Below are positions 27,042-63,565 of a stretch of 64,000 nt of DNA, in pieces. Numbering within the stretch: the first letter of the stretch is position 1; the number at the start of each line of letters is the position of its first letter. Location: contig NZ_JAAORM010000004.1 of assembly GCF_017695965.1 (NCBI RefSeq), positions 62,001 to 126,000 on the forward strand. Reading direction: 5' to 3'. The notes under the pieces were generated by a model, which saw only the letters and a program-made list of their open reading frames with translations, was not told the DNA's origin and did not search any database. The translations under genes and the position numbers were made by a program. The stretch is from Prochlorococcus marinus CUG1416 (GTDB lineage: Bacteria > Cyanobacteriota > Cyanobacteriia > PCC-6307 > Cyanobiaceae).

Positions 27042-27042
27042 T

Positions 27043-30669: not shown

Positions 30670-30681
30670 ATCTTTATTTAA

Positions 30682-31155
30682 TTAATATTTGACCTCATTT
30701 TTATAAAGTAGGTAATTCTTAAATTTTTTGTTTAAATATTGTTCTTCTAAAGCAATCTTAAATTTAATTATTAAACCCAGACTTATTGATAAAATTAAAT
30801 AATAAAAAGATAGCTTTGTTATAAAAAAGCCAAAGGAAATTAATATCAAAGAATAGTACATAGGATGACGCATAAATCGATAAATACCTGTATTAACAAG
30901 ATTGCTATTGTTTACAGGTCTTGGGAAAGGGGATAAATTTCTACCTAAGTCTTTAATTGCAACTATCAACATTATGAAAGCGATTATGATAGTTAAAAAC
31001 CCCACTAAATAAGAAAAAGGAGTGACTTGAATTATTTGTTTTTGTGGAATAAATTCCCATTGAAAAAAATGGAGACTAATAAGAAAGAACTGTAAAAAAA
31101 CAAGAATTAGTTCATAAGCACATTTTAAAAAAATTTTTAACCGAAATTTAGTCAT
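30682..31155 (-). CDS. Isoprenylcysteine/phospholipid methyltransferase-like membrane protein
   Basis: A 157-residue protein with about four membrane helices and the ICMT/PEMT-family core NLVNTGIYRFMRHPMYYSLIL, which binds SAM in this family. The E-E-Q-Y-L segment near the end fits. The substrate is unknown. It lies inside the recBCD operon: 3 bases after recC and 12 before recB, on the same strand. Confidence 0.75.
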   Translation of the reverse strand: MTKFRLKIFLKCAYELILVFLQFFLISLHFFQWEFIPQKQIIQVTPFSYLVGFLTIIIAFIMLIVAIKDLGRNLSPFPRPVNNSNLVNTGIYRFMRHPMYYSLILISFGFFITKLSFYYLILSISLGLIIKFKIALEEQYLNKKFKNYLLYKNEVKY

Positions 31156-31158
31156 TAT

Positions 31159-34100: not shown

Positions 34101-34341
34101 TATCAATGTCAGGAAAAAAATTTGTCAATAATGATTCGGTGTAACTTGATATTGTCTTTAATTCATAAAGAGCACTTATTTTATTTTTTATAGTTATTTG
34201 TTCACTTAACCACTTACCCAAAACATAATTAGGAACAGCTATTTCTAATTTCTCAGTTATAAAAGGAGGAGATATTTTTAATTCTTCTGCTAGCAGATCA
34301 CTAATTACTTCAATTTTGTTTGACTTATAAAGATTGAGCAA
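31159..34341 (-). CDS. recC: Exodeoxyribonuclease V gamma subunit
   Basis: The Chi-recognition and scaffold subunit. Its 1060 residues open with the family's LYKSNKIEVISDLLAEEL and have P-N-Y-VLGKWLSEQI near 40. A helicase-like but inactive fold is followed by a C-terminal nuclease-like domain (LSLSRLTEAWIKSLFISSL). Weakly conserved, so the call relies on these blocks plus position with recB and recD. It is first of the operon; ycf54 stops 20 bases upstream of its start. Confidence 0.9.
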   Translation of the reverse strand: MLNLYKSNKIEVISDLLAEELKISPPFITEKLEIAVPNYVLGKWLSEQITIKNKISALYELKTISSYTESLLTNFFPDIDMGLWNFESIKWGIVDSLEELNSFKESFPLRNWINKYLDNKKTIDGDLYNLTKKITNNFIDYLIFRPEMIADWNRYEINSLNLFKNLNSDQFWQPILYKLLEKKISEKPSCLYMIEVIKNLSKMKNFQIKVPNQIYIISDNNLSKLYINFYSELSKFTKVNLYLISAGNDLWKRINCLEGELEFDNYESKLNLNNKNIEKIFGKFGANFQKLIEENIYKEGINLKNNLIYIDPTNNFNKKKDIPLLNQIQKRLIDNNRNDFIVNKSDDSILLCEHSNQNSQLEYLRNKIIEIINSCENIKYSDIAILSPQTNLIKPYLRYVFNNELINGEKIPYFFIDEDNHDSPDIYKFLIDITEIANEKITLEKIDYILSKKVTQNIFDFHINEKEEIIFLLNKVGFHWGLDANERLGEEKNTLEWSINRIILGLIYDKEVNLSTFNLKPFSPKNISLDLNKWVKILLHLKKYINLLRGSFSYSIWVEKIKFILKSIADYNANFNLEISEINRILDNYAIPLIPEDLILLNVFREILISCINKAKYQSKSRINKILVSDIENARHIPNKVIFLIDMNSVYYPKSPKNENINLLNNKYHLGDPSVFEREKYSFLELLIACRDKFIVTWVKNDKNNKKLDVSFPIKELISFFDSFLNQGQRELIIKDSDLIKKEIINIDSSKIIKSNYSLVKDIDWNEIKSDIKNYKLSELIYWFKNPQKYWLNKKNISPKEIFIHHPDEEYVSNLQKSQLINKIIKELEIDNHNFIDDLKNLNIKDQLVENGIIISKNSIFIKEKEIKDLLGSLSALLSQDNKINRIYVKSNANKEEYFIADDTVIELIHTKLSLSRLTEAWIKSLFISSLKKNIQKTKVIFRTENHYKSQIIQLPGAIESNLILEEYINIFKNFSEKCLPLPPESTYKYVEAKIKSKNEKKAFSDRWIGNKNFSKGERDTIEMKLCFGNEKEPYFFFGNNNFDKLSFRLYGPLIEALKK

Positions 34342-34361
34342 TTTATTAATTCTTTGTATTA

Positions 34362-34676
34362 CTAAACTTTAAATGGATCAGTTATTTCTGCATTAGGACA
34401 TTCGAATTCCCCCACGGCAACGAACTCTAAACGAAGCTTTAAGAAAGTTATAAATTTTTTATCGGTAGATAAAACAGCTGCTGGGGGGGAGGGGATCTTT
34501 GCTGTTAGATTCTTAAATTGAGAAGTTTGTAAAAAGGATGGATTTTTTAAAAGCCAAAAATCTATTTCTTTATTGTTTTCTTTATAATTCCTCTCCCTCT
34601 CTTTCAAAATCTCTTCAATTGGTTCTTCAACTGTTAAAAATTTTTGACTTGCCGCGACGAAAAAATATTTTGTCAT
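34362..34676 (-). CDS. ycf54: Ycf54-family Mg-protoporphyrin cyclase assembly protein
   Basis: A 104-residue match to the Ycf54/DUF2488 family: FFVAASQKFL, EILKERERNY, IDFWLLK, AAVLSTDKKFITFLKLRLE. Known members are needed for the oxidative Mg-protoporphyrin IX monomethyl ester cyclase that forms ring E of chlorophyll. It lies 7 bases after pdxJ and directly before recC on the same strand. Confidence 0.9.
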   Translation of the reverse strand: MTKYFFVAASQKFLTVEEPIEEILKERERNYKENNKEIDFWLLKNPSFLQTSQFKNLTAKIPSPPAAVLSTDKKFITFLKLRLEFVAVGEFECPNAEITDPFKV

Positions 34677-34683
34677 TTGAAAT

Positions 34684-35400
34684 TTAATTTGAGTTAATAA
34701 GTGACTTCATTTCACGAACAGACTTTTCTAATCCTACCGCTAAAGCCCTTGCAACAATACTATGACCTATGTTTAACTCGTTAATATTGTTAATTGATGC
34801 AATTTTTTTTACATTATTGTAATTTAGTCCATGACCAGCATTAACAACTAATCCTAGGTCATTTGCTTCTTGTGTAGACTCAACAATCCTTTGAAGCTCT
34901 TTATGTTGATTATAACCGGTTAGTTCAGCATATTTACCAGTATGTAATTCTATAAAATTAAACCCTATTTCTTTTGAATAATTGATCTGCTCACAAATAG
35001 GATCAATAAAAGCACTTACTTCAATATTGGAATCATTTAAATTTTCAACAAAATTCTTAAGGTATTTCATATTCCCTTTTACATCCAATCCCCCTTCAGT
35101 GGTAACTTCCTCTCTTTTCTCTGGTACTAGTGTTACATAATCTGGAAGAAGCTTTTTGGCAATTTCTAACATTTCTTCTGTAGCAGCCATTTCTAAATTA
35201 AGTTTTGTTTTGATAGTTTCTTTCAAAAGAAATACATCTCTATCTTGTATGTGTCTTCTATCCTCTCTTAAATGAACGGTAATTGAATCTGCTCCACCTA
35301 ATTCAGCTAAAAAAGCAAATTGTACAGGGTCGGGCTCTATAGTTTTCCTGGCCTGTCTAACATTAGCGATATGGTCAATGTTTACTCCTAAAGTGGTCAT
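34684..35400 (-). CDS. pdxJ: Pyridoxine 5'-phosphate synthase
   Basis: Joins deoxyxylulose 5-phosphate to amino-acetone phosphate in DXP-dependent vitamin B6 synthesis. The 238 residues carry the signature GVNIDHIANVRQAR, the HLREDRRHI loop, LHTGKYAE and NAGHGLNY. It probably forms a small operon with ycf54. Confidence 0.96.
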   Translation of the reverse strand: MTTLGVNIDHIANVRQARKTIEPDPVQFAFLAELGGADSITVHLREDRRHIQDRDVFLLKETIKTKLNLEMAATEEMLEIAKKLLPDYVTLVPEKREEVTTEGGLDVKGNMKYLKNFVENLNDSNIEVSAFIDPICEQINYSKEIGFNFIELHTGKYAELTGYNQHKELQRIVESTQEANDLGLVVNAGHGLNYNNVKKIASINNINELNIGHSIVARALAVGLEKSVREMKSLINSN

Positions 35401-43364: not shown

Positions 43365-43516
43365 TAATTAGTTATGTAGTTTCAAAAAAAGATCATTCAA
43401 AATTTTTTTATTTTTAATTTTTCAAACATTTGTTCTAAAATATAAAACATAACTCACATTGAGATGATCTAAAATGCTGAGAATACTTATTCATCAAATA
43501 GATCTATTTGACACAA

Positions 43517-44278
43517 ATGAGAATTAAAATAAAAACCTTCATATATCTTCCCTTAATTATAGCAACATATACGATAATGAATCCTGTACAAGGAGGTTAT
43601 GGAGGAGAAGGGACTAAAAATAAAGCCGAGAAAATATCTAAATATAAGACACAAATATTTATTAACTATGTCAACTTAACGGTCAACTTCTTAAATGCCA
43701 CTGAAGAAAAAAATGAAAGACATATGATATTGTTCACAAACTGTCAGAAGCTTCTCAATGGTAATAAAAAGACAGTGAAAGGAAAAGATAAAAAAAATCT
43801 TATGTCTTGTACAAACCTCATGAAAAAAGGCACTTACTATAAGGAGACTAATTCACCTCCTATGGATTCTCTTCAAAAATTTAAAACTACAAAAAAAGAT
43901 CTCAACAACATTATTTATCCAGAAAGCAATAATTTTAAAAACAAAAATAATATTAAAACAAACGAGGATCTAGAAAATATAAGGCTAAAGGAACTTAAAG
44001 AAGAGCAGTTTAAAAGATTGCAAGAAAAACAACTGAAAAAACTTGAGGAAAAACAGCTTAAAGAAAAACTTCTTAAAGAAAAAATGCTTAAGCAGCTGAA
44101 AGAAAAGCAACTTAGAGAATTAAGAGAACTTCAAGAAAGACAGATTAGGGAACTTGATGAAAAAAAAGTCAAACAACTTGAACAAAAAATGCTACAGGAG
44201 CTTAAAGAAAGAAGAATAGAAGATTACAAAAATAGACAAAAAAGAATTAAGAAAGATTCAAATTTACTATTTAATTAA
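43517..44278 (+). CDS. Secreted coiled-coil protein, Lys/Glu-rich
   Basis: 253 residues from ATG 43517; a TTG 9 bases earlier is in frame but less likely. A signal peptide of about 28 residues is followed by a two-cysteine domain (to about 130), then a long charged helix of repeating L-K-E-L/K-Q-L units (about 160-235). The last 5 residues are NLLFN. The same coiled-coil plus NL[LM]FN end is found in the gene at 45748, so these two are related. No known function; periplasmic or surface. Confidence 0.7.
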   Translation: MRIKIKTFIYLPLIIATYTIMNPVQGGYGGEGTKNKAEKISKYKTQIFINYVNLTVNFLNATEEKNERHMILFTNCQKLLNGNKKTVKGKDKKNLMSCTNLMKKGTYYKETNSPPMDSLQKFKTTKKDLNNIIYPESNNFKNKNNIKTNEDLENIRLKELKEEQFKRLQEKQLKKLEEKQLKEKLLKEKMLKQLKEKQLRELRELQERQIRELDEKKVKQLEQKMLQELKERRIEDYKNRQKRIKKDSNLLFN

Positions 44279-45669: not shown

Positions 45670-45747
45670 TAAGTTTTGAATCTACTAAATTTAAAAAATA
45701 AAAAAATTTATATTTATAAAAAATCTAAATCCAAACACAGGAGTTTG

Positions 45748-46494
45748 ATGAAGATTTTTTTATTTTCGTTCTTTTTTTTATCTTCTCAAAGCCTACTAGC
45801 AGAATATGATTTTGATGGTATTTACCGATCTCAATTTTTATTGCCTTTCAAGGATTTCTATAGAGAAAAGTGCCCTAAAGATTTGCCAATAACAATTGAA
45901 CTAGAAATTAAAAAAAATAAAATCAAAGGAGAAATTTACAATACTTCATTATGCGATGGGTATCAAGACGCTTCAATTACTGGTGAAATAGATATCTATG
46001 GAAATTTTATCAAAACAAAATTCAAGCATTCAAGTATTAATGGCAGAAGGGAAGATGCTTATAAAATCGAAGGAAATCTTTCTGGTGAGTTAATTCTTAA
46101 AAGCAAAGCTAAGTTTTTATATAGAAATCAGAAATTCTCTTTAACAAAATATAAATCCGAGAAAAATAATGAAACAACTTTATTTAAGGGAAAGGAAGAT
46201 CAGAAAGATTTAGAGCTAAAAGAGTTAAAACAAAAACAGCTTAAAGATCAGAAAGATTTAGAGCTAAAAGAGTTAAAACAAAAACAGCTTAAAGATCAGA
46301 AAGATTTAGAGCTAAAAGAGTTAAAACAAAAACAGCTTAAAGATCAGAAAGATTTAGAGCTAAAAGAGTTAAAACAAAAACAGCTTAAAGATCAGAAAGA
46401 TTTAGAGCTAAAAGAGTTAAAACAAAAACAGCTTAAGAATTTGAGGAATAAACAAGAAACATTGAAAAAAAGTACAAATTTAATGTTTAACTAA
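45748..46494 (+). CDS. Secreted protein with beta domain and 16-residue coiled-coil repeats
   Basis: 248 residues from ATG 45748, chosen because AGGAG lies 7 bases upstream and a signal peptide (to about LLAE, residue 18) starts there; a longer in-frame ATG at 45676 would bury it. The mature N-terminal domain (about 20-140) is beta-rich with two cysteines. The C-terminal half is five copies of a 16-residue helix repeat, KDQKDLELKELKQKQL, and it ends in NLMFN. It shares this layout and ending with the gene at 43517. Confidence 0.75.
   Translation: MKIFLFSFFFLSSQSLLAEYDFDGIYRSQFLLPFKDFYREKCPKDLPITIELEIKKNKIKGEIYNTSLCDGYQDASITGEIDIYGNFIKTKFKHSSINGRREDAYKIEGNLSGELILKSKAKFLYRNQKFSLTKYKSEKNNETTLFKGKEDQKDLELKELKQKQLKDQKDLELKELKQKQLKDQKDLELKELKQKQLKDQKDLELKELKQKQLKDQKDLELKELKQKQLKNLRNKQETLKKSTNLMFN
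46198..46437 (+). repeat. Five tandem 48-bp repeats in coding sequence
   Basis: Copies start at 46198, 46246, 46294, 46342 and 46390. They are identical except for the last base of copy five (AAG for AAA). Each codes for 16 residues of coiled coil, so copy-number change keeps the frame. Near-zero divergence means recent expansion. Confidence 0.97.
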
Positions 46495-51876: not shown

Positions 51877-51950
51877 CGGGGCGTGGCGCAGCTTGGTAGC
51901 GCGGGTGCTTTGGGAGCACTAGGTCGCAGGTTCGAATCCTGTCGCCCCGA
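51877..51950 (+). tRNA. trnP: tRNA-Pro(TGG), attachment-site host
   Basis: 74 bases with acceptor stem CGGGGCG/CGCCCCG, discriminator A, anticodon loop TTTGGGA (TGG) and T-loop TTCGAAT. Intact and presumably functional. Its 3' 45 bases are the left attachment core of the mobile element. Confidence 0.97.
51906..51950 (+). repeat. attL core (tRNA-Pro 3' end)
   Basis: 45 bases identical to 63521-63565. They run from the anticodon-stem 5' side (TGCTTTGGG) to the discriminator base, so insertion rebuilds a complete tRNA. Confidence 0.93.
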
Positions 51951-52285: not shown

Positions 52286-52930
52286 ATGGTTTCAAATCAC
52301 TCAACTCAAAATTTAAAATTTTTCACTGTCAACCATGAGCTTCTTGAGTTCGTTTGGCACAAATGCAGCTTATGCAGTGATATCACACAAAGGAATATAA
52401 AAGGTGTAGCAACCTTATATTCTTTGTTAGGGAGTATATGGTACAGAGGGAAGAAACCTTATATTTTAAAGGGGAAAAAAGGTCTATGGAAAGTAGTTGA
52501 TCAAGAATATTTAGCAAATTATAGTCTTTGTTCAAAAAGGACAGTTATCAGATATATGAAGATTCTTACTAATGCTGGATTAATTGAATATAAAAAATAC
52601 GGCTTTACTCATAAGAAGTATTACCAACTAATTTCAGATGAAAGAAATAATGAAAGTGATGTTAACGATCCAAAAAGCATACATAAAGTAACAAAACTGT
52701 CAGATCCGAAAGTGCCAAATAGTCATAATCATATCTACCAAAAAGACACAGTCGAAAATGACAATTCTTCAGAGTCAAATATTAGAATCAATAATAAGAC
52801 TTTATTAAAAGATATTTATGGGATCCATGGTGCTTACGCACCAGACATACATAAAAAAGAAAAAGATTTAGAAATTGAGAAACGTAAACAGATCAATCAA
52901 CTAAGGGAGTTGGAGAAGAAGCAAAAATGA
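52286..52930 (+). CDS. Winged-helix protein, phage/plasmid replication-initiator-like
   Basis: A 214-residue protein. Residues about 25-115 form a helix-turn-helix/winged-helix unit (ATLYSLLGSIWYRG, then YSLCSKRTVIRYMKILTNAGLIEYKKYG). The rest is polar with a charged helix end (about 190-214). The layout (HTH that reads colony-type spacing, long disordered tail) resembles O-protein-like replication starters or conditional regulators. Possible element replication or control; not proven. Confidence 0.55.
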   Translation: MVSNHSTQNLKFFTVNHELLEFVWHKCSLCSDITQRNIKGVATLYSLLGSIWYRGKKPYILKGKKGLWKVVDQEYLANYSLCSKRTVIRYMKILTNAGLIEYKKYGFTHKKYYQLISDERNNESDVNDPKSIHKVTKLSDPKVPNSHNHIYQKDTVENDNSSESNIRINNKTLLKDIYGIHGAYAPDIHKKEKDLEIEKRKQINQLRELEKKQK

Positions 52931-53065: not shown

Positions 53066-53446
53066 TTAGTTAAAAAATTCTGCTAACTTGTTATAAAATT
53101 TCTGAAAATTGTGCTTATCAGGTTTATTACAATTATTATCGGCACTTAAAAGTGCATATTCATTAGCAAATTTATTACCTGCATTCGTTTTCATATAAGC
53201 AATATGGTAATCAAACTCATAGGAATTCATCCTATTACGTAGATTTCTTATTAAAATTTTTGTTGCTCTATCAGGACTAATTGTTCCTTGAGCTATTTTG
53301 CATCTTGCAATTCCAACTTCCATAATTGATAATGCCAAAGAAAAATCATCTCTATTATTAAAATCTTTAATAGGAAATTTATGATCAGCATTAATAGCAG
53401 TGGGTAATGTAATTGCAGCTAGTAGTGGGAGTAGTAAGTGTTTCAT
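53066..53446 (-). CDS. Small secreted protein A
   Basis: 126 residues, signal peptide to about residue 20 (LPTAINAD). The mature part is helical with two cysteines (CKIAQG and NNCNKP). It starts inside the stop of the next gene (ATGA overlap at 53443-53446). Signal-peptide DNA is nearly identical to that of its neighbour. No family known. Confidence 0.6.
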   Translation of the reverse strand: MKHLLLPLLAAITLPTAINADHKFPIKDFNNRDDFSLALSIMEVGIARCKIAQGTISPDRATKILIRNLRNRMNSYEFDYHIAYMKTNAGNKFANEYALLSADNNCNKPDKHNFQKFYNKLAEFFN

Positions 53447-53802
53447 CTATATCTACCGTCACGATAAAGAATTTTGGAGGTCTTTTTACAAATATCGACT
53501 TCAATCCATTCCATATTTACAACATGAGTTGGCATATCCTCCTTTGCACCGACTCTATATTTGCATTCTCTACTATCTTTATAAACAAAATACCAAGGAT
53601 ACTTATAGTGTTTATTTTCCTTAATTCTGTCGGAAAGCATCTTCCAATATTTGTCATTCACTAATTTAACTACTGCTCTCTCCTCCTCATTACAGTTACC
53701 GCCTGAGTCTGGGCAAGTGAATTTATGTCTAGGATATGGTTTAGCATCAATAATGCTAGGTAAAGCGAGTGCAGCTAGTAGTGGGAGTAGTAAGCGTTTC
53801 AT
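53443..53802 (-). CDS. Small secreted protein B
   Basis: 119 residues, signal peptide to about 20 (LPSIIDAK), then a mature domain with five cysteines, including CPDSGGNC. It shares its first 11 codons almost base for base with the gene at 53446, while the mature parts differ. It forms a two-gene unit with that gene. Confidence 0.6.
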   Translation of the reverse strand: MKRLLLPLLAALALPSIIDAKPYPRHKFTCPDSGGNCNEEERAVVKLVNDKYWKMLSDRIKENKHYKYPWYFVYKDSRECKYRVGAKEDMPTHVVNMEWIEVDICKKTSKILYRDGRYR

Positions 53803-53824
53803 TTACTTTTCTTAATTTTATAAA

Positions 53825-54217
53825 TTAAAGACCTGGATAAATCCCGCTCCTTACAGCCGAATCAGGAGTTGGAACAATACATAAGGAAAGACTAGATATT
53901 TCTCCCTCATCTACAGAAGCATAAGCAACTCCAAGTAGATTAGACTTATCTCCTTGAGCCATGATAAGGCAATCGGTATGTCCATAGGCTGGGCAGACTC
54001 CTAATTCCGCATAAACAGAACTCTTAGTTTTTTTTATTATTTCAAGTTTTGGTCTGATATATTCAATGAATTCATCTTTTGAGTTCATATCGGTTAAGAC
54101 TTTTTGTGAGGAGTAGGAGAAGTCTTCTGACAAAAACGATTCAAATTCAGACGAATCAAGAGTGTGTAGCATTTTCGCGTAAATACTCAAAGCTTGTTTT
54201 TCTGTTAAGGAGGTCAT
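53825..54217 (-). CDS. NTF2-like cytoplasmic protein
   Basis: 130 residues with no signal peptide. The start (LTEKQALSIYAKMLHTLDSSEFESFLSEDFSYSSQKVL) is the N-terminal helix pattern of SnoaL/NTF2-like domains, and a strand-rich end with three cysteines follows. Possibly a small-molecule binding protein or an immunity-like partner of the secreted proteins around it; the latter is a guess. Confidence 0.5.
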   Translation of the reverse strand: MTSLTEKQALSIYAKMLHTLDSSEFESFLSEDFSYSSQKVLTDMNSKDEFIEYIRPKLEIIKKTKSSVYAELGVCPAYGHTDCLIMAQGDKSNLLGVAYASVDEGEISSLSLCIVPTPDSAVRSGIYPGL

Positions 54218-54281: not shown

Positions 54282-54542
54282 TTAATACATCCAATTAATT
54301 CCTGTGCTTGGGTACTTAAGACCGCCACTTCTTCCTGAGTACCCATAAGATTTAACATTTCTTTTGTAAACTCCATCGTTATTATCATCGTAATAAGAAG
54401 AACTGGAACCATTACTACATCTTTGGCTATATCCATTTCCATAGGAGTGGTTAGTTCTATAACAATAATCAGCTTTTGTTGGAGATAAAAAAGATGATCC
54501 TAAAACAACTGAAAGGATAGGAAGTAAGAATAATTTTTTCAT
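54282..54542 (-). CDS. Small secreted Ser/Gly/Tyr-rich protein
   Basis: 86 residues, signal peptide to about residue 24 (SPTKAD). The mature part is rich in Tyr, Ser, Asn and Gly (SYGNGYSQRCSNGSSSSYYDD) with two cysteines, and looks disordered. Unknown; surface or matrix component possible. Confidence 0.55.
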   Translation of the reverse strand: MKKLFLLPILSVVLGSSFLSPTKADYCYRTNHSYGNGYSQRCSNGSSSSYYDDNNDGVYKRNVKSYGYSGRSGGLKYPSTGINWMY

Positions 54543-54635
54543 TTTAAAATTTTGATTGTGGAAATAAATCCGTACAGTATCTTCTAGTTCTGGATACTTA
54601 AAAGTGATTCCAAAAATAGTATTAATGAATATTTT

Positions 54636-55016
54636 TTAACCACATTGTTTATCTTCTCCAGTAATGCAATATCTTTTAGATTCACTATTTAGGCGTTGTT
54701 GACAAGCAATTGACATTAAAGGTTTAACTGTTCCTTGTCCAAAAAATTTATTTTGATAATAGTAACAAATCCCACTTCTAGCTTTTCTCCATTCTTCCCA
54801 TAGTTTGTCATCATTTAATTCTTTTCTAAGTTCCCAGTCTGATTTAAGTAACCTTTCAACTTCGCATCTAGTGTATTCAGGAGTAGCTCCATCTTCTACA
54901 CATTCAAATGGATAGTTTTTAAAATGACTTTCTTTCCAACTTTCAAAACTATGATCATCAGCTTTTACAAAAGGAGTTAAAACAAATAATAGAGATGTAA
55001 TTATTATGTATTTCAT
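54636..55016 (-). CDS. Small secreted protein C, cysteine-rich
   Basis: 126 residues, signal peptide to about 19 (VKADD), six cysteines in the mature part including the last two-residue CG end. Charged, helical. It begins 3 bases after the stop of the gene at 55514 on the same strand, so translation may be coupled. Confidence 0.6.
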   Translation of the reverse strand: MKYIIITSLLFVLTPFVKADDHSFESWKESHFKNYPFECVEDGATPEYTRCEVERLLKSDWELRKELNDDKLWEEWRKARSGICYYYQNKFFGQGTVKPLMSIACQQRLNSESKRYCITGEDKQCG

Positions 55017-55019
55017 TTT

Positions 55020-55514
55020 TTATTCTCCTCTCCTAATTGTTTCAAGTGTATGTAGATAAAATTTTGGAAATATTTCTGTAAGTTCTTCTAGCCTTTTTTC
55101 ATTCAGCTCTTCTTTAGGTAAATTTGTAAGTTTTGGTATGGATAATTTAATATTTTCTCGACACCAATTTATTGATTTAATAGCTTCTTCTTTAACATCA
55201 TCTTTTATCGATAGATTCTCATCAAATATAGAATTAACATCTAAGTTATTACCTCGTATAAGTGCTCTAAAGATAAGATCAGAATTTTTAATTGATTCTC
55301 CCAATTCTTTATTTGCTTCAATTCCAAAAACCAATGTGCAAGCTGCAATACCTATTGATCTAGCAATACATTTATCATTGCCTACCTCATTGCATGGCAA
55401 TCTAAAATTATACTCAATTTTTTTTATATTAAATCCATACTTTCCCTCTGGAAAACCAGCTTGAACATTTAAGGGTAAAGATAAAAATAATAATGCAATT
55501 AAAAAGTTTTTCAT
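55020..55514 (-). CDS. Secreted protein, tandem paralog 1
   Basis: 164 residues with a signal peptide to about 19 (NVQAGF). Shared core with the next gene: PCNEVGNDKCIARSI-x-AACTLVFGI...ALIRGNN...WCREN (paralog: PCSEYGEESCTARFI...ACTFVFGI...AIMRGNK...FCKDA). Four aligned cysteines probably make two disulfides. Unknown family. Confidence 0.62.
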   Translation of the reverse strand: MKNFLIALLFLSLPLNVQAGFPEGKYGFNIKKIEYNFRLPCNEVGNDKCIARSIGIAACTLVFGIEANKELGESIKNSDLIFRALIRGNNLDVNSIFDENLSIKDDVKEEAIKSINWCRENIKLSIPKLTNLPKEELNEKRLEELTEIFPKFYLHTLETIRRGE

Positions 55515-55536: not shown

Positions 55537-56031
55537 CTACCCTTTCCTTCCTTTCTTTATCCCTTCAAGAGTTCTTAACCACCACTCTCCATAGGTTCTA
55601 GTAGCGACTTCAATAAATTCTGGAGTAGCTTCTTTACCTGTTTTTTCTAAAACTATTTCTGGAATTGCTTCCTCAGTAGCATCTTTACAAAATCTAACTC
55701 TATCCTTAACCTCATTACGTATTTCAGTTTTAATATCATCATTTTTATTAAACATACTTATTGGTTTGATTTTATTACCTCTCATAATTGCTACAAAGAG
55801 TTCATCTGCGATATCCAATGCCTCTCCAACAGGTTTCCCTTGATTAATTCCAAAAACAAAAGTACACGCTGACATAGCAATAAATCTTGCAGTACAACTT
55901 TCTTCTCCATATTCCGAACAAGGTAAACTTAATTCTTTTTCTAATTTCTTTAAATTCTCTGGACTTTCTGGTAGAGCATAAGCATTTAAGGGCATTAGAA
56001 ATAAAAGCCCTGCGAATAAAAACCTTTTCAT
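55537..56031 (-). CDS. Secreted protein, tandem paralog 2
   Basis: 164 residues with a signal peptide to about 19 (NAYALP). Same length and cysteine pattern as the paralog 22 bases downstream. The predicted secretion plus duplication fits a surface or toxin-like role, which is inferred only. Confidence 0.62.
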   Translation of the reverse strand: MKRFLFAGLLFLMPLNAYALPESPENLKKLEKELSLPCSEYGEESCTARFIAMSACTFVFGINQGKPVGEALDIADELFVAIMRGNKIKPISMFNKNDDIKTEIRNEVKDRVRFCKDATEEAIPEIVLEKTGKEATPEFIEVATRTYGEWWLRTLEGIKKGRKG

Positions 56032-56110
56032 TTAATTATTATTTATTGGTTACTTATCTTTAGTTCCAGATTTTAAACCTGATTCCAAATAAATAAAATT
56101 GAAAATTTAT

Positions 56111-57298
56111 TTAATCACACCTATCTTCTATTGATAAATCTGATTTTACTTTCTGCAATTCGCTAGAAGCTGGAGCTTTATCTGAAAATAATAATGTTAA
56201 TCCAGTATCCTTATCAATTTTTATATTTTCATTAATTGATTTAATCCAAGTATTTTTTGAATCTCCTAATTTAGAAACTATTTCATCAAGGTCATTTAAT
56301 TTTTCTTTTGAATATGTAATGAGATTTATATTTAGTTCTGATCCTAATGAAGCTCCATCTGCTCTTAGAGATAATTTAAATTCATCACCTCGCTTAATAG
56401 GATCTAATGGCCAATTTATTGGCCCCTCAATTTTTTTACTTGATGTAGCTATTTTTCTCCATAGGATTTTATTATCCTTAATAATCTTTACTTCATTTAG
56501 AGGTTTTAAAGAATATATCGTCGGTTTATCAACTTTAATTTCTGCTGATAATATATTATCTTCTCCTCTAACAACCGTTGGAGTTAATAAACAAATTGAT
56601 TTTTTCTCAGAAGAACTTCTTGTAAATGAATTCACTTCAAATGATTGAGGAGTAAGAGTAGCTATAGATCCCATTAACTTCGGTCTAAGTAATTCTGGAC
56701 CTATCAAAATTGTAGAAATGGCACCTATGGCAATAAAACTGCCAAATTTAATTTTCTTTTTTAATTGAATCCAAATTTCAGAATTAGATTTTGATAAAAG
56801 ATTAAGTCTTGGTAAAGCCTCAGTATCTAAAAGTCTTACTAATCTAAAAAGCCTATCAATTCCACCATTAAAAGAATCTAGCGAAATATTGAACTCATCT
56901 TTTCTCATATCTTTTTTATTAATAATTCCCTTAAACTCTTCACTTGTTAAAACTCCTTTGAAATAAACAATTTTTGAATCTTCTTCAACTTGTGCTGCCA
57001 ATATAATTTGTGGTCCTTTTCCTTCTATTTTTGAATTCTTTAAAGAAATCTTTGCTTCATCTGCAATAAGTTCTGAAGTTATAATTTGGATATCAAATTT
57101 ATTTAAAATAATTGATCTCGATGGATCCGTTAAAGCTAATGCGGGACCTAATTGTAAATTTAGATTTTTTTCTTTTATATATTTTTCCATTGCTAAAATT
57201 ATCAACTCTCTAACAGAAAGATTTAACTCTTCATCCAAAATAATTGCTTCCTCTGGAATAGGGAAAGCTTCTAGTTCCTGATCAATAAAATCACTCAT
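56111..57298 (-). CDS. DUF1822-like one-helix transmembrane protein, possible anti-sigma
   Basis: 395 residues. A cytoplasmic N-terminal domain (about 1-180) has the DUF1822-like segment ILAAQVEEDSKIVYFKGVLTSEEF at 98-122. One membrane helix covers about 185-202 (FIAIGAISTILIG). The C-terminal part (about 215-395) is a beta-domain with the P-I-N-W-P-L...G-D-E-F pattern seen in cyanobacterial envelope proteins. Its ATG shares one base with the TAA of the sigma-like gene, so translation is coupled. In other cyanobacteria DUF1822 genes commonly stand beside this sigma family. I infer a membrane anti-sigma or sensor. Confidence 0.65.
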   Translation of the reverse strand: MSDFIDQELEAFPIPEEAIILDEELNLSVRELIILAMEKYIKEKNLNLQLGPALALTDPSRSIILNKFDIQIITSELIADEAKISLKNSKIEGKGPQIILAAQVEEDSKIVYFKGVLTSEEFKGIINKKDMRKDEFNISLDSFNGGIDRLFRLVRLLDTEALPRLNLLSKSNSEIWIQLKKKIKFGSFIAIGAISTILIGPELLRPKLMGSIATLTPQSFEVNSFTRSSSEKKSICLLTPTVVRGEDNILSAEIKVDKPTIYSLKPLNEVKIIKDNKILWRKIATSSKKIEGPINWPLDPIKRGDEFKLSLRADGASLGSELNINLITYSKEKLNDLDEIVSKLGDSKNTWIKSINENIKIDKDTGLTLLFSDKAPASSELQKVKSDLSIEDRCD

Positions 57299-58605
57299 TA
57301 TTCAATAGCCTCCTTTATCAATTGTTTTAATAGAGGTCTCTTTTCATTTAGTTCTGAATTTATTAAGTGATTCTTTAAACTTTCAACTAATCTTTCAATT
57401 CCATCAATATCATTCTTCAAAGATGAAAACTCATTAATTCTTAAAAGTATAATTGCTGATTCTTGAGCAATAGATTCTGATATTTTCTTTTCAGGTAAAA
57501 GTTTACTTACCCATGCTTGTTTATGCTCACATTTTGCAGCAATTTCTCTTTGACTTAATCCTTGACTATAGAGTTGCCAAGCAAGTTTCCTACTTTTATC
57601 TTTATCCCACTTTTTTTTATCTTGACTAATTAATTCTTTAATAATAGGTTCACCACAATTTCTTAGTGTTAGTTCAATTTTTGAAATTAAATTAATTTTT
57701 GAATCATCATCTAGATCCTCCTCAAAACTTTGTATTTGAGATTCTTCATTATTTTCAAATTGACGCGGCGTATATATAGCAGATAAATATTTTCTCAACG
57801 CTTTATCTAAAAGTAAAAGAGTCTCTTTATTTTGTTGTGTAGGATTGAGACTTTTTAAGAAGTTTTCGTCGGGTTGCCATCCAGAAATTTTACCTGTTTT
57901 TTCTTTGTAAATAGTCTTAGCTTTTTTATATTCATCAATATAGGATTCATAAAGTTTTTTTATATAGGAAGTTTGAAAGACTCCTTCACCGCACCTATCC
58001 CAGGCCTCTGTGATTCTTTTACTTGAACTATCTGCAATAAGAGCCCAAGGACTAATCAAAAGTATTCCACACTTTTTTAAATACGATTTAAGCTCAGCAC
58101 TTCCTTGAACTTTATTTTTTGTCCAAGTAGTTAAGTTGGATAAAGAGGAGTTATATTCAACAATAATTTCTGCAGTAAATGGTTTTAAATTATTTTTCAT
58201 CTGCATATATTCAATTGTCTCCCAACAAAATATTTTTTTTATAAAACCCATTTTTTTATCAGGTGTATTTTTAGGAACCCTGAGATATTTATCCCCACTA
58301 TCGTCCAATAAGATTATCAACATCTCACTTAATTCTATTTCATATCTTTCTTTAAATTGGTTATAAATTAAATTTATCTTTTGTGATATTGGATGACTTA
58401 CTCTTCCTCTTAGAGCCATCAAAGAATCTTTCTCTTTAGGATTTTTCTTGGCTAATAATAAAAGATTTTTATCAATATTTTCAGTAGGTTGGCTATTTAA
58501 TAAATCAAATTTGTCTATCAGATTAGTATCAATATCAAGTACTTTCCTCTCTACCATTAAAGAAGAAGCTTCTATTTTTGATATCTCGCAGTAATCCTTC
58601 AACAA
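57298..58605 (-). CDS. Cyanobacterial sigma-70-like regulator paired with DUF1822
   Basis: 435 residues. The C-terminal helix-turn-helix at about 346-370 (SQGLSQREIAAKCEHKQAWVSK) is a region-4-type HTH. Before it, LLLLDKALRKYLSAIYTPRQF and a diffuse helical region match, in order, a cyanobacterial family of divergent sigma-70 factors that sits beside DUF1822 genes. No clear region 2 is seen. It probably binds promoters or RNA polymerase; a transposition or ParB-like role is the alternative. It starts 77 bases after the CHAT gene's stop. Confidence 0.65.
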   Translation of the reverse strand: MLKDYCEISKIEASSLMVERKVLDIDTNLIDKFDLLNSQPTENIDKNLLLLAKKNPKEKDSLMALRGRVSHPISQKINLIYNQFKERYEIELSEMLIILLDDSGDKYLRVPKNTPDKKMGFIKKIFCWETIEYMQMKNNLKPFTAEIIVEYNSSLSNLTTWTKNKVQGSAELKSYLKKCGILLISPWALIADSSSKRITEAWDRCGEGVFQTSYIKKLYESYIDEYKKAKTIYKEKTGKISGWQPDENFLKSLNPTQQNKETLLLLDKALRKYLSAIYTPRQFENNEESQIQSFEEDLDDDSKINLISKIELTLRNCGEPIIKELISQDKKKWDKDKSRKLAWQLYSQGLSQREIAAKCEHKQAWVSKLLPEKKISESIAQESAIILLRINEFSSLKNDIDGIERLVESLKNHLINSELNEKRPLLKQLIKEAIE

Positions 58606-58682
58606 TAGTCAATAAGCTTTGTATTAAATGTATTTTAAAAAAAAGTATAAATTTGTCGACAACCATATTTATTTATTTAAAT

Positions 58683-61679
58683 TTAGAAACTTATTGGCCT
58701 CCAATCTCCACTTAATTGAAAAGCAGCCCATACATTTGGATGCCTCCAATCTTCATTGGGATGTACTTTAAATTCATTTTGAGTAGCAGCTAGTGCATTT
58801 GATCTTCCTACCCCGTCCTTTAACTTGCTATAAAAAGTTTCCATAAATGCAGCTGTTGCTTTATCATTTACTTCCCATAGCGAGAGTAAACTGGATCGCG
58901 CCCCAGCAACTGCAATTGATCTTTTAAGTCCATAAATACTATCCCCTGATTTAATTTCTCCAAGACCAGATTCACACCCTGAGATCACAACAAGTTCAGT
59001 TCCAGAGAAGTCCAATTTACTTAGTTCAAGAGCTGTAAGATAGCCGTCATCAATTTTATTAATTTCAGGATAATTAGCTCCAGATAATACAATCCCACTC
59101 CTAAGTAACGGATCCTCAAATTTTGAATTTTGTTTATTAAAGCTATTTGCGAAAAGTATTGAAGATAATGCTAATTTTTCTTCTTTATTACTTAAGAAAA
59201 AAGAATGAGAGGCAATATGCATTATTTTTGGTGAATTCCTTTTTTGAATATTTAATACTGATGCTGCATCTTCAATTAAAAGTTCACCATCTATTTTATT
59301 TGAGATAAATCTTCCTTCTTCCTTAGTTCCAGGTAAAGAATTCCATATCTTTAAACTTTGTTCGAAAGATCTTTTTTGGGCTTCAAACTCCTTTTCATTT
59401 TTTATAACTTTTGTCTTTGAGGAATTATCTTTTAGATTGAAATTAGGATTAGCTACTACAAGAGACTTATTGTTATTGAAAATATTTGTTTTGTTTAAAG
59501 AAACCAATTCTCGCCCAGTAGTAATTAACCGTAATAAGAATTCTTCTCCAAGTAATTTATTTTCATTTGCACTACTAACTGCAGCAAATGGTACTTTATT
59601 TAACTCTGAATCTGGAGAAATAAATAAAACTTTTTTATCTTTAATATATTTTCCTAAAGGATTAATTATTGACTTTCCAACGCTTTTCAATAATTTCTGT
59701 GCATCTGGGAGGTATTGTTCTGATGCAATTAATGCGTTTTTAATTATATCTTCAATTTCTTGTGCAGGTCCTAAATCAACTGTTTCGACCTCTCCATTTG
59801 AGAAAAGAAGAAGGGCTTGATATCTTGGCTTTTCCCAATTGTCTTCTGACAAAGCATCTGTAGGATTATCAAAGATAAATGGCCTATATTTTTGGTATTC
59901 AATTAAGACCCCATTGTTTGGTATTTGTTGTGAAATTTCTTTAATGGAATATATCTTTGATTTGAAATCTGGTAATGATTTATATAATTCAAGTTCTAAG
60001 ATTTCTTTTTCAATATTAAGTTTTTTTATTGATTCAATATCATTTGTATTAATTGATGAGATTTGATTGTTTAAACTTATGATTTTTTTATTAAGATCCT
60101 TTTGAGCTCCGTCTAAAGATGAAAGTTTTGATTGTTTTTTCTCAATTTCTTCAAGTAATCCGTGACGATTTAATCTCGCAAATAAAGCAAGATATTTACC
60201 TTTGGGATGAATATTTGAAGCTGAGAAAATAGCTGGATAAGATATCCCTAATCTTTTAATAAATTCATCTCTTTTAGAAAGAGGTAAGTATGGAATTTGT
60301 TCTTGTATGAATTTAAATTGAAGATTAAGACTTTTTCTTAAATAAAATTCAGTATTTTCAAAATCATCTTCATTGAAGTAAACCATAGCCAAATTTATAT
60401 ATGGCTGAATTAAGAGTGGATTTTTTTCTCCAAATATCGACTTATATGTATCTAATGATTCTTTATGAAAGACTTTTGCTTCTTTATTTTTACCTTGAAA
60501 CCATAAGGAACTTCCAACCATTGATGATAGGTAAGGATCTGGTTTTTTAAAACCTTCAATTTTAAATTGTTTTTTATAAAGTCTTTTTAATATCCTCTCT
60601 GCTTTTTGTAATTTTTTCTCAACAAAAGCTATATAGGCAAGAGATAGCTGTCCTTCATAAGTTCTAAATTTTATAAATTTCTTAGCTTTCTCATAATCTT
60701 CATTAACTATGTAAATATTAGAAAGAAGACTTGAACAAGCATTCTCATAAATTGAATCATTTGTTTTAGCTAAACATTTTTTTGAAAGTTCTTCTGATTT
60801 TTTAAAATTTCCTATAAATAAATAGTATCTACTTTCTGCATATAGAAGAGCTGCTTCTTTCTCTTTATTATCTGATTGATTGAGTAAGAGTTTTGCTTTT
60901 TCTATTAATTCAGGGACTTTTGATAACTTACTTAAAATAAGGTTATTATCCATCAAATATATTATTGAATCTAATTTTTGAATAGGATCCCCAATATCTA
61001 AAATTTTTTCATAATCTATATTTGCTTGTTCATAATTCCCGAGATTGAAATTAGTCCAAGCCCTAGAAAAATAAATTTCTGAATATAGCGGGTCAATATT
61101 TATTGCTGCTGAATAATCTGCTAAGGAACCTTTTAAATCTCCTATATTCCTTTTATAATCTCCTCTTAAGCTAAAAGAATATTTATCATTAGGATCTTTT
61201 GTAATTGCTAAATTTAAATCCTTAATTGCTTCATTGTAATTTCCAGTTTGTCCTTTGCTAAATGCTCTAGCGTAATACGGATAATAGAATTCAGGCTCTA
61301 AATTAATTGCTATCGTAAAATCTGATATTGCTCCTTTATGGTCACTAATTAACTGCTTACTATATCCTCGACTCCAATAACTTACTGACCATTGCTTTTG
61401 ATTTAGTTTTATAGCATTACTAAAATCTGATATAGCTCCTATATGGTCTTTTAGATTTTGTTTGGTTAACCCCCTATTATGATAAGCCCTCCAACTCTCC
61501 GGATTTTTTTTGATTACTTTATCAAACTTTTTTAGTGCTTCATCATAATTTTTATCTGTAAGGTATTCACGGCCTTCATTCAATAATCTGTCTAGGTCAT
61601 CTGCTTTTAACTGATTTGAATTAAAAGGAAGTAATACATTAATGGCTATAAATAAAAAAATAGATAAATTTTTAATCAT
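58683..61679 (-). CDS. Secreted TPR-CHAT caspase-like protease
   Basis: 998 residues: signal peptide (about 1-27), six TPRs (about 30-235), a helical region with more TPR-like units (to about 450), a coiled coil (about 520-560), and a CHAT domain (about 650-998). The catalytic dyad is intact: His825 in HIASHS and Cys902 in VISGCESG. The end (WAAFQLSGDWRP) is typical for CHAT. The predicted location is periplasmic, unlike cytosolic CRISPR-linked TPR-CHAT. It is the first gene of the sigma/DUF1822 unit. Confidence 0.88.
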   Translation of the reverse strand: MIKNLSIFLFIAINVLLPFNSNQLKADDLDRLLNEGREYLTDKNYDEALKKFDKVIKKNPESWRAYHNRGLTKQNLKDHIGAISDFSNAIKLNQKQWSVSYWSRGYSKQLISDHKGAISDFTIAINLEPEFYYPYYARAFSKGQTGNYNEAIKDLNLAITKDPNDKYSFSLRGDYKRNIGDLKGSLADYSAAINIDPLYSEIYFSRAWTNFNLGNYEQANIDYEKILDIGDPIQKLDSIIYLMDNNLILSKLSKVPELIEKAKLLLNQSDNKEKEAALLYAESRYYLFIGNFKKSEELSKKCLAKTNDSIYENACSSLLSNIYIVNEDYEKAKKFIKFRTYEGQLSLAYIAFVEKKLQKAERILKRLYKKQFKIEGFKKPDPYLSSMVGSSLWFQGKNKEAKVFHKESLDTYKSIFGEKNPLLIQPYINLAMVYFNEDDFENTEFYLRKSLNLQFKFIQEQIPYLPLSKRDEFIKRLGISYPAIFSASNIHPKGKYLALFARLNRHGLLEEIEKKQSKLSSLDGAQKDLNKKIISLNNQISSINTNDIESIKKLNIEKEILELELYKSLPDFKSKIYSIKEISQQIPNNGVLIEYQKYRPFIFDNPTDALSEDNWEKPRYQALLLFSNGEVETVDLGPAQEIEDIIKNALIASEQYLPDAQKLLKSVGKSIINPLGKYIKDKKVLFISPDSELNKVPFAAVSSANENKLLGEEFLLRLITTGRELVSLNKTNIFNNNKSLVVANPNFNLKDNSSKTKVIKNEKEFEAQKRSFEQSLKIWNSLPGTKEEGRFISNKIDGELLIEDAASVLNIQKRNSPKIMHIASHSFFLSNKEEKLALSSILFANSFNKQNSKFEDPLLRSGIVLSGANYPEINKIDDGYLTALELSKLDFSGTELVVISGCESGLGEIKSGDSIYGLKRSIAVAGARSSLLSLWEVNDKATAAFMETFYSKLKDGVGRSNALAATQNEFKVHPNEDWRHPNVWAAFQLSGDWRPISF

Positions 61680-61832
61680 TTAAATTTATTTTTAAAAATA
61701 GAGAAAAACGTATCCCTTTGAAGCTTAAGTATATTCTAATTTTTAAGCTGTAAATCAATAATAATCTTTTCTGGAATCAATCAAAGCCTCTCAGAACTAA
61801 GTGAGGAGTGAACACAAATTAAACTTGTCAAA

Positions 61833-62087
61833 ATGTCTTTCAAAAACATTAACCCATCCTCAAAAATCAAGAAGCTCTTAAGTCTTGCAGTCTTCGGAGC
61901 TTTAATCATTGTTCCGAATATGAAGGCTTATGCTGATGTATACGTCAAAGGGCATTACAGATCAAATGGAACATATGTAAATCCTCACTACAGAACAAGT
62001 CCTAACAATTCTACTTATGATAATTGGTCTTCATACGGGAATTCAAACCCATACACTGGTCAAAAAGGTTACAACAGAAGTTATTAA
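61833..62087 (+). CDS. Small secreted GHYR-repeat protein
   Basis: 84 residues with a signal peptide (about 1-33, ends AYADV). The mature part is GHYRSNGTYVNPHYRTSPN... NPYTGQKG, a short Tyr/Asn-rich pattern found in many secreted bacterial proteins of unknown role. It is divergent from the CHAT gene and is followed by a good terminator. Confidence 0.7.
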   Translation: MSFKNINPSSKIKKLLSLAVFGALIIVPNMKAYADVYVKGHYRSNGTYVNPHYRTSPNNSTYDNWSSYGNSNPYTGQKGYNRSY

Positions 62088-62172: not shown

Positions 62173-63384
62173 TTAAGCCGCTAACTGTTTTTCAAACTTT
62201 GCATGGGTATCTTCAGGCATAAATCTTGCATAATTTTGCTGATGAACTTCCACTGTATGACCCATTACAAATGCAATATCTTTAATTGATAAATTCATTT
62301 CAACGCTTCTTGAATGAGCTATCTTTGCATATCTATGACGGAAGGCATAAGGAACTAATACTTCTTTTTGTTTTTCTGCTTGTTTTTTAAATTTATTCCA
62401 AACAGGATTCCTAGATAATCTTGTCTTTAATGCGTCACTTGCTTTACCTTCCTTACCTATAGGAGCTAATGCTTCATCTTTTTCTAGTCTTTCTTGTAAG
62501 TTCCAATTAATAAAACCTTTTCCATCTTTAATCAATAAAGGAGCTAATTTTCTAGGTTCAGTTTTTTGTCCTTTAGTTCCTCCCATAGATTTTTCGTAAG
62601 TAGTCCACAACTCTTTCCCTCTAATTCCATCTTTAATGACAAGAAAACGAAGTTCCTCTGGACGCAATCCATAAACTGCCAATAATTGAAAATTAAATTG
62701 CCATCTAGGATCTTTTTCAGAAGCTATTAATTGCAGTATCTGATCTTCTCTAAGTGCATAACCTATGCGTTTCTTTTTCAAAGTTTCCTTCATTTGAACA
62801 GGTGCATATTGTCTCGGTAATTTTCCTCTCAAAATTGCCCAATCTAGAAATTTTTGTAATGCTCTTCTAGCAATTTGTCTCGATCTACTACCCATTTCCC
62901 ATTTCTTTAGGGAATATGTCATTAATTCTTCTCCGTTTTGTGGCTTCTTTTGCGATCTTTCTAATAATTCTTGGGCTATATGGAGCACGGGGACATAGGA
63001 TTTATTCCATGTTTCTTCAGAAGCGGATGGGCAAAAGGCTCTAAATTCAATAAATAATTCTTTAAAATCTATCTCACTATTAGAAGAGGATTTATGAACA
63101 ACGGTTGCTGATTTCTCTAATGATCTATTTCCTAAATCTGAATAAAAATTTTTATATATAAGAGATATTCTTTTTATTGATTCAGTTGCTCCTTTAAGCG
63201 ACCAATCATTCTCCAGAGTTAAAGTTTGAGTCTTTCCATCCTCTTTTACTAATAATCTAATTTTTCCTCTACTCTCCTGAACATACCAAGCAGCTTTAGG
63301 AGCCATAAAAGACTTTAACTGTTCTCTAAAGGTTTGAACCCATGATTCAGTTTTTGATTTAACTGGCATAGAGCACCAGGTCAT
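62173..63384 (-). CDS. int: Tyrosine recombinase (integrase) of the element
   Basis: 403 residues. An N-terminal DNA-binding arm domain is followed by a SAM-like core-binding domain (about 120-200) and a catalytic domain with Arg241 (YGLRPEE), Arg349-His350 (YAFRHRY), His376 (MGHT) and Tyr385 (QQNYARF). The usual first His of box II is a Tyr. It lies just inside attR and reads into the element; its ATG is 15 bases from the right GTGTAAAA pair, so binding there could repress it. Confidence 0.93.
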   Translation of the reverse strand: MTWCSMPVKSKTESWVQTFREQLKSFMAPKAAWYVQESRGKIRLLVKEDGKTQTLTLENDWSLKGATESIKRISLIYKNFYSDLGNRSLEKSATVVHKSSSNSEIDFKELFIEFRAFCPSASEETWNKSYVPVLHIAQELLERSQKKPQNGEELMTYSLKKWEMGSRSRQIARRALQKFLDWAILRGKLPRQYAPVQMKETLKKKRIGYALREDQILQLIASEKDPRWQFNFQLLAVYGLRPEELRFLVIKDGIRGKELWTTYEKSMGGTKGQKTEPRKLAPLLIKDGKGFINWNLQERLEKDEALAPIGKEGKASDALKTRLSRNPVWNKFKKQAEKQKEVLVPYAFRHRYAKIAHSRSVEMNLSIKDIAFVMGHTVEVHQQNYARFMPEDTHAKFEKQLAA

Positions 63385-63441: not shown

Positions 63442-63520
63442 GACACTTAGCGGATTATTTAATTTAGGCTATATCTATTGTTACAACTGAAACCTCTTTA
63501 TATCACTAAATCTGTACGGT

Positions 63521-63565
63521 TGCTTTGGGAGCACTAGGTCGCAGGTTCGAATCCTGTCGCCCCGA
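63521..63565 (+). repeat. attR core (copy of tRNA-Pro 3' end)
   Basis: 45 bases identical to 51906-51950; the 5' half of the tRNA is absent, so this is no functional tRNA. Confidence 0.95.

Follow-up and report, generated by a model that had tools for sequence, protein, structure and literature searches.

The stretch analysed here, called the window, comprises 64,000 nucleotides (nt) of Prochlorococcus marinus CUG1416, bases 62001-126000 of contig C4 (NZ_JAAORM010000004.1) in a 1.67-Mb genome of five contigs. It contains an 11.6-kb integrase-bearing element flanked by 49-nt copies of the 3' end of tRNA-Pro, and flanks and integrase together uphold the mobility suggested by a first-pass annotation made from the sequence alone. 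The element carries genes for a TPR-CHAT protease-like protein (CHAT, 58683..61679), a sigma-70-like factor (SIG, 57298..58605) and a DUF1822-like protein (DUF1822L, 56111..57298). These lie in this order on the minus strand with the last two sharing base 57298, just as that annotation had placed them. It had further proposed that CHAT, activated outside the membrane, cuts DUF1822L and releases SIG to express secreted cargo; neither the ends of the element nor promoters figured in it.

SIG is a protein of 435 amino acids (aa) with no Pfam or NCBIfam match over cut-off and no named sigma family. Run against sigma-70-region-4 proteins encoded just ahead of DUF1822 in larger cyanobacteria (a class-level set of 146 genomes), hhalign gives a probability of 96.2 and an E-value of 2.5e-9, which bears out its description as a divergent sigma-70-like protein; all three of these DUF1822 partners that were scanned are over the cut-off for Sigma70_r4. 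The AlphaFold model (predicted local distance difference test score, pLDDT, 84.9) returned 50 rows in VIA-align, every one a sigma or initiation-complex chain at Z 6.1-7.9 (below 8), including two named RPSB and RPSD, which we take to be sigma-B and sigma-D. Foldseek with the same model reached a best E-value of 0.4, with nothing below 0.001, and the SIG profile found no convincing match in a PDB sequence search and no relative in a scan of IMG/VR. Among the 266 Prochlorococcus genomes of the same-genus comparison set, the window's own counted in, SIG was found in 23 and falls into two subtypes, of 427-452 aa (18 genomes) and 505-559 aa (five genomes).

DUF1822L (395 aa) is resolved by profiles, AlphaFold and hydropathy into three parts, all encoded on the minus strand: a DUF1822 N-domain predicted to be cytoplasmic (residues ~12-165, 56804..57265), one predicted membrane helix (residues 183-201, 56696..56752; hydropathy 1.63, preceded by a basic stretch) and an outer beta/helical domain (residues ~231-391, 56126..56608). 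Each of the 21 listed Prochlorococcus relatives that are not truncated, the window's protein among them, has a hydrophobic segment near this position. DUF1822L matches no Pfam family and no NCBIfam model, and PF08852 finds no match anywhere in the window's genome. The link to DUF1822 comes from hhalign of the N-domain (95.05, E 3.5e-8, profiles of 40 and 37 sequences), an earlier comparison with smaller sequence sets having failed at 0.5%, and from a bridge in which the DUF1822L profile matches the L131 protein, itself Pfam DUF1822 at 1.2e-48. The DUF1822-like part and single span of the first-pass annotation gain support from the hhalign match and the predicted helix. Of the hidden Markov model searches it had named as a check, that for CHAT came out over cut-off, while Pfam DUF1822 and sigma-70 stayed below it in the window proteins.

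The AlphaFold model of DUF1822L has a pLDDT of 74.0 with the membrane region unresolved, and neither Foldseek with this model (nothing below E 0.001) nor a PDB sequence search with the profile gave a convincing match. In VIA-align the N-domain returned nuclease rows at Z 6.1-7.1, under the level to trust, presumably of the PD-(D/E)XK-type nuclease fold class; going by the model, the domain is possibly an inactive nuclease-like fold. The outer domain compared with DUF928 gave hhalign E-values of 0.33 and 0.053 in the two directions and 0.21 with smaller sets, none significant, and two separately encoded relatives of this domain match no Pfam family.

The CHAT protein (998 aa) matches Pfam CHAT over residues 662-992 (~58704-59696, minus strand) at an E-value of 8.2e-60, with 203 bits against a cut-off of 24, and has TPRs besides. 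Residues 825 and 902 are His and Cys, confirming the putative catalytic pair named in the first-pass annotation, and both are kept in 40 of 40 aligned rows that cover the two positions (window included), two further rows being fragments without them. Its N-terminus is a signal-like hydrophobic stretch as judged by a hydropathy script rather than SignalP, and a 10-residue N-terminal stretch with a mean hydropathy of at least 2.1 is found in 23 of 23 full-length Prochlorococcus CHAT relatives, again including the window's. The protein is probably secreted, in keeping with the earlier placement of CHAT outside the membrane. A PDB sequence search with it gave 55 matches, among which Csx29 was absent; the proteins named were TPR, designed-repeat and other TPR-containing ones.

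A promoter-like motif ahead of accessory genes

The motif GGAATCA-N13/14-GAACWA was first noticed by eye in the upstream regions of these same loci. The 23 SIG loci hold 45 exact GGAATC-N14/15-GAACTA sites and one at all other spacings from 12 to 19, and three dinucleotide shuffles of the loci give a mean of 0 sites at N14/15. Four Synechococcus-type loci of the same family (L112-L115), outside the set from which the motif was derived, have 6, 9, 5 and 6 sites; mononucleotide shuffles of L112, L114 and L121 have none. Over the 266 genomes the motif has 120 matches in 47 genomes, compared with 28 for a reversed control pattern. The 23 SIG-bearing genomes account for 84 of the 120, and 71 of these 84 lie within 20 kb of SIG; in G194 all four sites, and in G200 four of five, are on contigs other than that of SIG. 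At least two sites occur in 17/23 SIG-bearing but 3/243 SIG-lacking genomes (Fisher 3.9e-19).

The window's genome has three exact copies, all inside the element and each ahead of one or more small signal-bearing genes. The first, GGAATCA-N14-GAACTA at 61773..61799 on the plus strand, is 33 nt ahead of an 84-aa gene; the others, on the minus strand, are 29 nt ahead of a 164-aa gene at 55537 (N13, 56061..56086) and 42 nt ahead of an 86-aa gene at 54282 (N14, 54585..54611). A fourth site with one mismatch (57349..57374, minus strand) lies inside the SIG 3' end, 50 nt ahead of DUF1822L, and is weaker because it is also coding. When two mismatches are allowed, the genome yields 73 and 54 matches compared with 58 and 63 for reversed controls, so that elsewhere sites with mismatches are about as frequent as expected by chance.

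The placement of sites differs by gene class. In 18 loci, a search of up to 150 nt ahead of genes whose free upstream DNA is 45 nt or longer finds a site for 54 of 115 accessory genes, in 40 cases at 24-33 nt from the start codon. The count is 0/12 for SIG, 0/7 for CHAT and 0/7 for Zn-peptidase genes (accessory genes against these 26 combined, p 7.6e-7), and 0/13 for conserved flanking genes presumed to be chromosomal. By family, over 19 loci, sites precede 7/7 genes of an M48-type cluster, 7/9 of the 84-aa family, 3/4 AAA, 12/26 small TPR proteins, 3/7 DnaB-like, 2/7 of the 164-aa family, 0/4 DUF2201 and 27/122 others. In L112 one site stands 272 nt upstream of a CHAT gene, and in L113 another precedes a 633-aa TPR-type gene by 11 nt; for this reason the exclusion of CHAT from the motif is clearest in Prochlorococcus. 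The earlier claim that the sigma factor expresses secreted cargo gains support from this placement, which suggests that SIG very likely reads the motif.

The motif could instead be the operator of another regulator carried or used by the islands, with SIG acting elsewhere, and a candidate is at hand in the helix-turn-helix or replication-initiation-like protein that the element also encodes (214 aa, 52286..52930, plus strand; phrog_270 replication initiation, E 3.9e-7). This explanation is quite unlikely, as the motif lacks symmetry, points the same way relative to the gene and has a spacer of 14 or 15, and its distance from the start codon is promoter-like. It also follows the SIG subtype: at least one site is present in 18 of 18 genomes with the shorter type and in one of five with the longer. 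Of the latter, G133, G160, G177 and G217 have no site and G264 has one, on another contig. Three loci with the longer type (L045-L047) have two promoter-like sites each of the form GAAACT-N13-GAACAA, with the second half kept and the first changed, and the SIG helix-turn-helix differs in these same loci.

It is very improbable that SIG controls excision or transfer of the element with the secreted genes as passengers. The SIG gene does sit on an integrase-bearing element; however, no motif match lies upstream of the integrase or the replication-like gene, and of the four matches in the whole window, one each is ahead of the 84-aa, 164-aa and 86-aa genes and DUF1822L.

Several points count against taking the motif for a promoter that SIG reads. 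Its presence in these loci is partly circular, having been found by eye there, and related loci are not independent; the informative parts are the contrasts of locality, class and subtype, of which the class contrast was made after looking. At least one site occurs in 19/23 SIG-bearing genomes and also in 28/243 that lack SIG. Three SIG-lacking genomes, G075, G216 and G229, hold 5, 2 and 4 sites, these genomes being 82, 70 and 50% complete; the SIG profile found nothing in 12 SIG-lacking genomes including these three, an empty answer that alone proves little. The Zn-peptidase gene of L030 and L031 has a site 396 nt upstream, beyond the 150-nt limit. Finally, the putative DUF1822L promoter overlaps coding sequence and appears in 6 of 19 loci by position weight matrix scan. 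With a looser pattern, sites in the SIG 3' end before DUF1822L were found in 8/23 Prochlorococcus, 2/4 Synechococcus-type and 8/15 larger-genome loci of the family (L116-L130).

The proposed circuit and its possible trigger

The DUF1822L gene directly follows SIG in 23 of 23 loci, overlapping it by 1 or 4 nt in 22 and separated by a gap of 81 nt in L026. A gene adjoining the sigma gene is one criterion for an anti-sigma factor, and DUF1822L has this position in every locus. Pfam CHAT was found in 33 of the 266 genomes. SIG and CHAT occur together in 17 genomes, SIG alone in 6, CHAT alone in 16 and neither in 227 (Fisher p 2.9e-13), and the co-occurrence of the three families elsewhere that the first-pass annotation expected is thereby seen. 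In a draw of 250 genomes from the family, the SIG profile matches 28, four of them from the same genus. Weaker, more distant CHAT matches occur without SIG in G011, G032, G046, G076, G108, G116, G130, G156, G158, G210 and G254.

Covariation was assessed from pairwise distances over 21 loci, using one CHAT per locus (last 360 residues) and 2000 permutations. The distance correlation is 0.952 for SIG and DUF1822L, 0.798 for SIG and CHAT and 0.789 for DUF1822L and CHAT, values reached by none of the 2000 permutations. The partial correlations are 0.871 for SIG and DUF1822L given CHAT, 0.248 for SIG and CHAT given DUF1822L, and 0.160 for DUF1822L and CHAT given SIG. By these measures SIG and DUF1822L behave as partners, and CHAT travels along with the pair.

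The reading that best fits these data is a membrane-gated, self-limiting sigma circuit for secreted cargo. SIG would be a dedicated sigma-70-like factor reading GGAATCA-N13/14-GAACWA promoters before the element's small secreted-protein genes. DUF1822L would be its membrane-spanning partner, with one helix across the membrane and the outer domain as signal receiver, and the cytoplasmic DUF1822 domain would most likely keep SIG inactive. SIG would then be freed by an event on the outside, for which cleavage by the secreted TPR-CHAT protease is the likeliest candidate, with a ligand or stress as the alternative. The freed factor would turn on the secreted cargo and, via the promoter in its own 3' end, would also raise DUF1822L, closing the circuit again. 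That the element is a self-contained circuit of this kind, with a sigma factor, a membrane regulator, a secreted protease trigger and motif-driven secreted cargo, is given a probability of roughly 0.6. Within it, DUF1822L is probably the inhibitor of SIG, and the role of CHAT as the trigger is put forward tentatively, by analogy. The trigger step is attractive because of the Csx29/Csx30 precedent, and the place of the CHAT gene outside the motif regulon is as expected of an upstream component.

The same SIG-DUF1822L circuit could run without the cut, with DUF1822L acting as a ligand or stress receptor by shape change and CHAT doing another outside job such as cargo trimming. This is a serious possibility, if short of a probable one, and much of what favours it also tells against the protease step. 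CHAT co-varies weakly with the SIG-DUF1822L pair beyond shared inheritance, as the partial correlations indicate, and the place and orientation of its gene vary between loci. Sixteen of the 33 CHAT-bearing genomes have no SIG match, and 6 of the 23 SIG-bearing genomes have no Pfam CHAT. Three of these six, G133, G160 and G177 (L047, L045 and L046), instead encode a signal-bearing TPR protein with trypsin motifs, which were read directly from the sequence; the one copy scanned, that of L047, is a Trypsin_2 match. G174, G194 and G217 showed neither Pfam CHAT nor a trypsin-motif TPR protein in the loci examined, which contig ends cut. In addition, DUF1822 of the larger-genome relatives has weak hydrophobic segments at varying places, and none in L116; should it lie in the cytoplasm there, it would be out of reach of a secreted CHAT. 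On the other side, all 17 genomes with both genes have a CHAT within 10 kb of SIG, and the motif, present ahead of many cargo genes, is missing ahead of CHAT as it is ahead of SIG, in line with an upstream role for the protease.

Cargo, integration site and surroundings

Seven of the eight small cargo proteins of the element have signal-like N-termini by eye. The 164-aa protein at 55537..56031 has a paralogue of the same length at 55020..55514, followed by a 126-aa protein at 54636..55016; the site ahead of the first gene thus has two more small genes close behind it. The 86-aa gene (54282..54542) is followed by three, the first after 64 nt: a 130-aa protein at 53825..54217, which is the one without a signal-like start and has a weak ketosteroid-isomerase-like match (TIGR02096, E 0.015, below cut-off), a 119-aa protein at 53443..53802 and a second 126-aa protein at 53066..53446. 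From their spacing, both gene runs may be single transcripts. These genes, from 164-aa to second 126-aa, are all on the minus strand; the 84-aa gene lies on the plus strand at 61833..62087 and has relatives in 8 of 23 SIG loci, the window included. The task of the cargo is perhaps cell-surface or neighbour interaction. A 63-nt stretch is 81% identical at the starts of two adjacent cargo genes (53387-53449 and 53743-53805); it is the signal-peptide-coding part and the remainder differs, as if an export cassette had been reused.

The element might alternatively be a conflict or cell-death system, with CHAT an effector active in infection and the sigma arm inducing toxins or defence cargo, as proposed for caspase/EACC2 loci. 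Kaur et al. 2021 (PMC8195603) do report ECF (extracytoplasmic function) sigma and DUF1822 genes beside EACC2-caspase genes, and suggest a transcriptional output. Related loci also include a PDC-S37-like defence candidate in L047 and pairs of AAA with DUF2201/VWA in four Prochlorococcus loci, for which one member per cluster was scanned. This explanation is nonetheless unlikely: none of the window's CHAT, SIG, DUF1822L, integrase and helix-turn-helix proteins hits a PADLOC model at E 0.001, hydropathy gives CHAT an export signal, and the cargo is largely signal-bearing as described above.

The element inserts at tRNA-Pro(tgg), annotated by ARAGORN at 51877-51950 on the plus strand. Its left boundary is the 49-nt 3' end of this gene (51902..51950) and its right boundary a copy at 63517..63565, both on the plus strand, 98% identical and 11,615 nt apart. 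Close to the far end is a 403-aa tyrosine-recombinase-type integrase (62173..63384, minus strand), which matches phrog_1 integrase at E 1.1e-14 and a XerA-type model at 5.9e-9, below the cut-off of that model, and has no match in a Pfam scan. The repeat occurs in series, with copies at G000:C4 ~125517, 126909, 128509, 131313 and 145060 and C3 ~3550 and 7014; in the relatives this tRNA-Pro site is likewise filled by a repeat array, and no empty integration site could be recognised. As copies recur along the contig and also in relatives, the site looks like a stacked island of serial insertions. Elsewhere in the window, two proteins with long, highly charged KELKEKQLK-type repeats are encoded at 43508-44278 and 45676-46494, and a 10-kb stretch of low G+C (~22-25%) spans 25000-35000.

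Origin and relation to known systems

Larger-genome members of the family have related clusters with more separate parts. In loci such as L118-L121, L123 and L124, SIG comes first and DUF1822 second, then a CHAT-CHASE2-type membrane protein and finally a signal-bearing protein, which matches the outer part of DUF1822L (profile positions ~201-391, E down to 3e-34). Both proteins of the CHAT-CHASE2 slot that were scanned, from L123 and L131, contain CHAT and CHASE2 by Pfam, and all 14 aligned proteins of this slot retain the presumed CHAT His and Cys. The Prochlorococcus DUF1822L, with its DUF1822 N-domain, membrane helix and a domain that is separately encoded in these relatives, looks like a fusion of the inner and outer components of an older cluster, which would mean joint action of the two halves across the membrane.

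More widely, DUF1822 is present in 92 of the 146 class genomes. In 20 DUF1822 loci of larger cyanobacteria that were read, a clear sigma homologue adjoins DUF1822 in 13, a CHAT-CHASE2-type match is present in 8 and a TPR-CHAT match in 8 (in L171 and L181 only in pieces). Only L170 and L180 combine a clear sigma homologue with CHAT-CHASE2. Elsewhere among the CHAT-CHASE2 loci, the gene ahead of DUF1822 is short where seen; of two that were scanned, the L176 one is a sub-threshold sigma match and the L175 one has no match. Loci L174-L180 are DUF1822 and CHAT-CHASE2 clusters, some with DUF928, TPR-CHAT or two-partner secretion genes: the proteins after CHAT-CHASE2 that were scanned, in L175, L176 and L179, are all DUF928, ShlB was found in L175 and L179, and TPS in L174 and L176. 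Such clusters may be a general regulator of cell-surface secretion.

The most complete version of the proposal is a portable outside-to-promoter circuit in which a secreted TPR-CHAT cuts a membrane-spanning DUF1822 inhibitor and frees a sigma factor with element-only promoters. It would be an extracytoplasmic counterpart of Csx29/Csx30/sigma, derived by fusion from cyanobacterial sigma-DUF1822-CHAT/CHASE2 clusters; taken as a whole, this version is doubtful. The promoter-like motif before accessory genes and the fusion architecture of DUF1822L are new here, and in open-licence PubMed Central (PMC) literature on DUF1822, CHAT, tycheposons and Prochlorococcus islands no account was found of the motif or regulon, the fusion or the element. 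Many cyanobacteria have DUF1822, often by sigma genes, and no tested function for it was found in the same literature. The predicted promoter and a minimal three-gene version make its function directly testable. If the proposal is true, a mobile element brings a private sigma regulon into a 1.67-Mb genome.

Compared with the DUF1822 clusters of larger cyanobacteria, the Prochlorococcus loci share a related sigma factor next to DUF1822, with TPR-CHAT nearby in part of the loci, but show no CHAT-CHASE2 between the pair and have the outer domain fused to DUF1822. The layout predicted for DUF1822L resembles that of the regulator in RsgI/SigI, which crosses the membrane with its sigma-controlling part in the cytoplasm and another part outside. 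RseA/DegS/RpoE is built on the same plan (for RseA, see PMC10028731). A further parallel is the type III-E CRISPR system Csx29-Csx30-CASP-sigma, in which a TPR-CHAT protease cuts a sigma-binding inhibitor and the sigma factor has targets in its own locus (PMC10028731). Csx29 is described there as working in complex with Cas7-11 and activated by RNA, whereas the CHAT protein here has an export signal and the putative inhibitor spans the membrane. A Pfam scan of ten element proteins found no Cas family, with three small open reading frames outside the scan and no dedicated csx30 or csx31 model used. In EACC2-caspase systems, too, the protease is of caspase type and has a sigma factor and DUF1822 as neighbours, but their DUF1822 is described as a TPR protein (PMC8195603). 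The DUF1822 of this mobile element is instead an apparent fusion anchored in the membrane, its gene lies next to that of TPR-CHAT, and target promoters are predicted. Secreted CHAT proteins are also mentioned for an island of Synechococcus (PMC7522525). The criterion for tycheposons, tRNA-derived flanks together with a tyrosine recombinase, describes this element as well, and like them it is a cargo element of Prochlorococcus (PMC10872708). Unlike the tycheposons of that account, which stresses nutrient genes, its cargo would be a signalling circuit.

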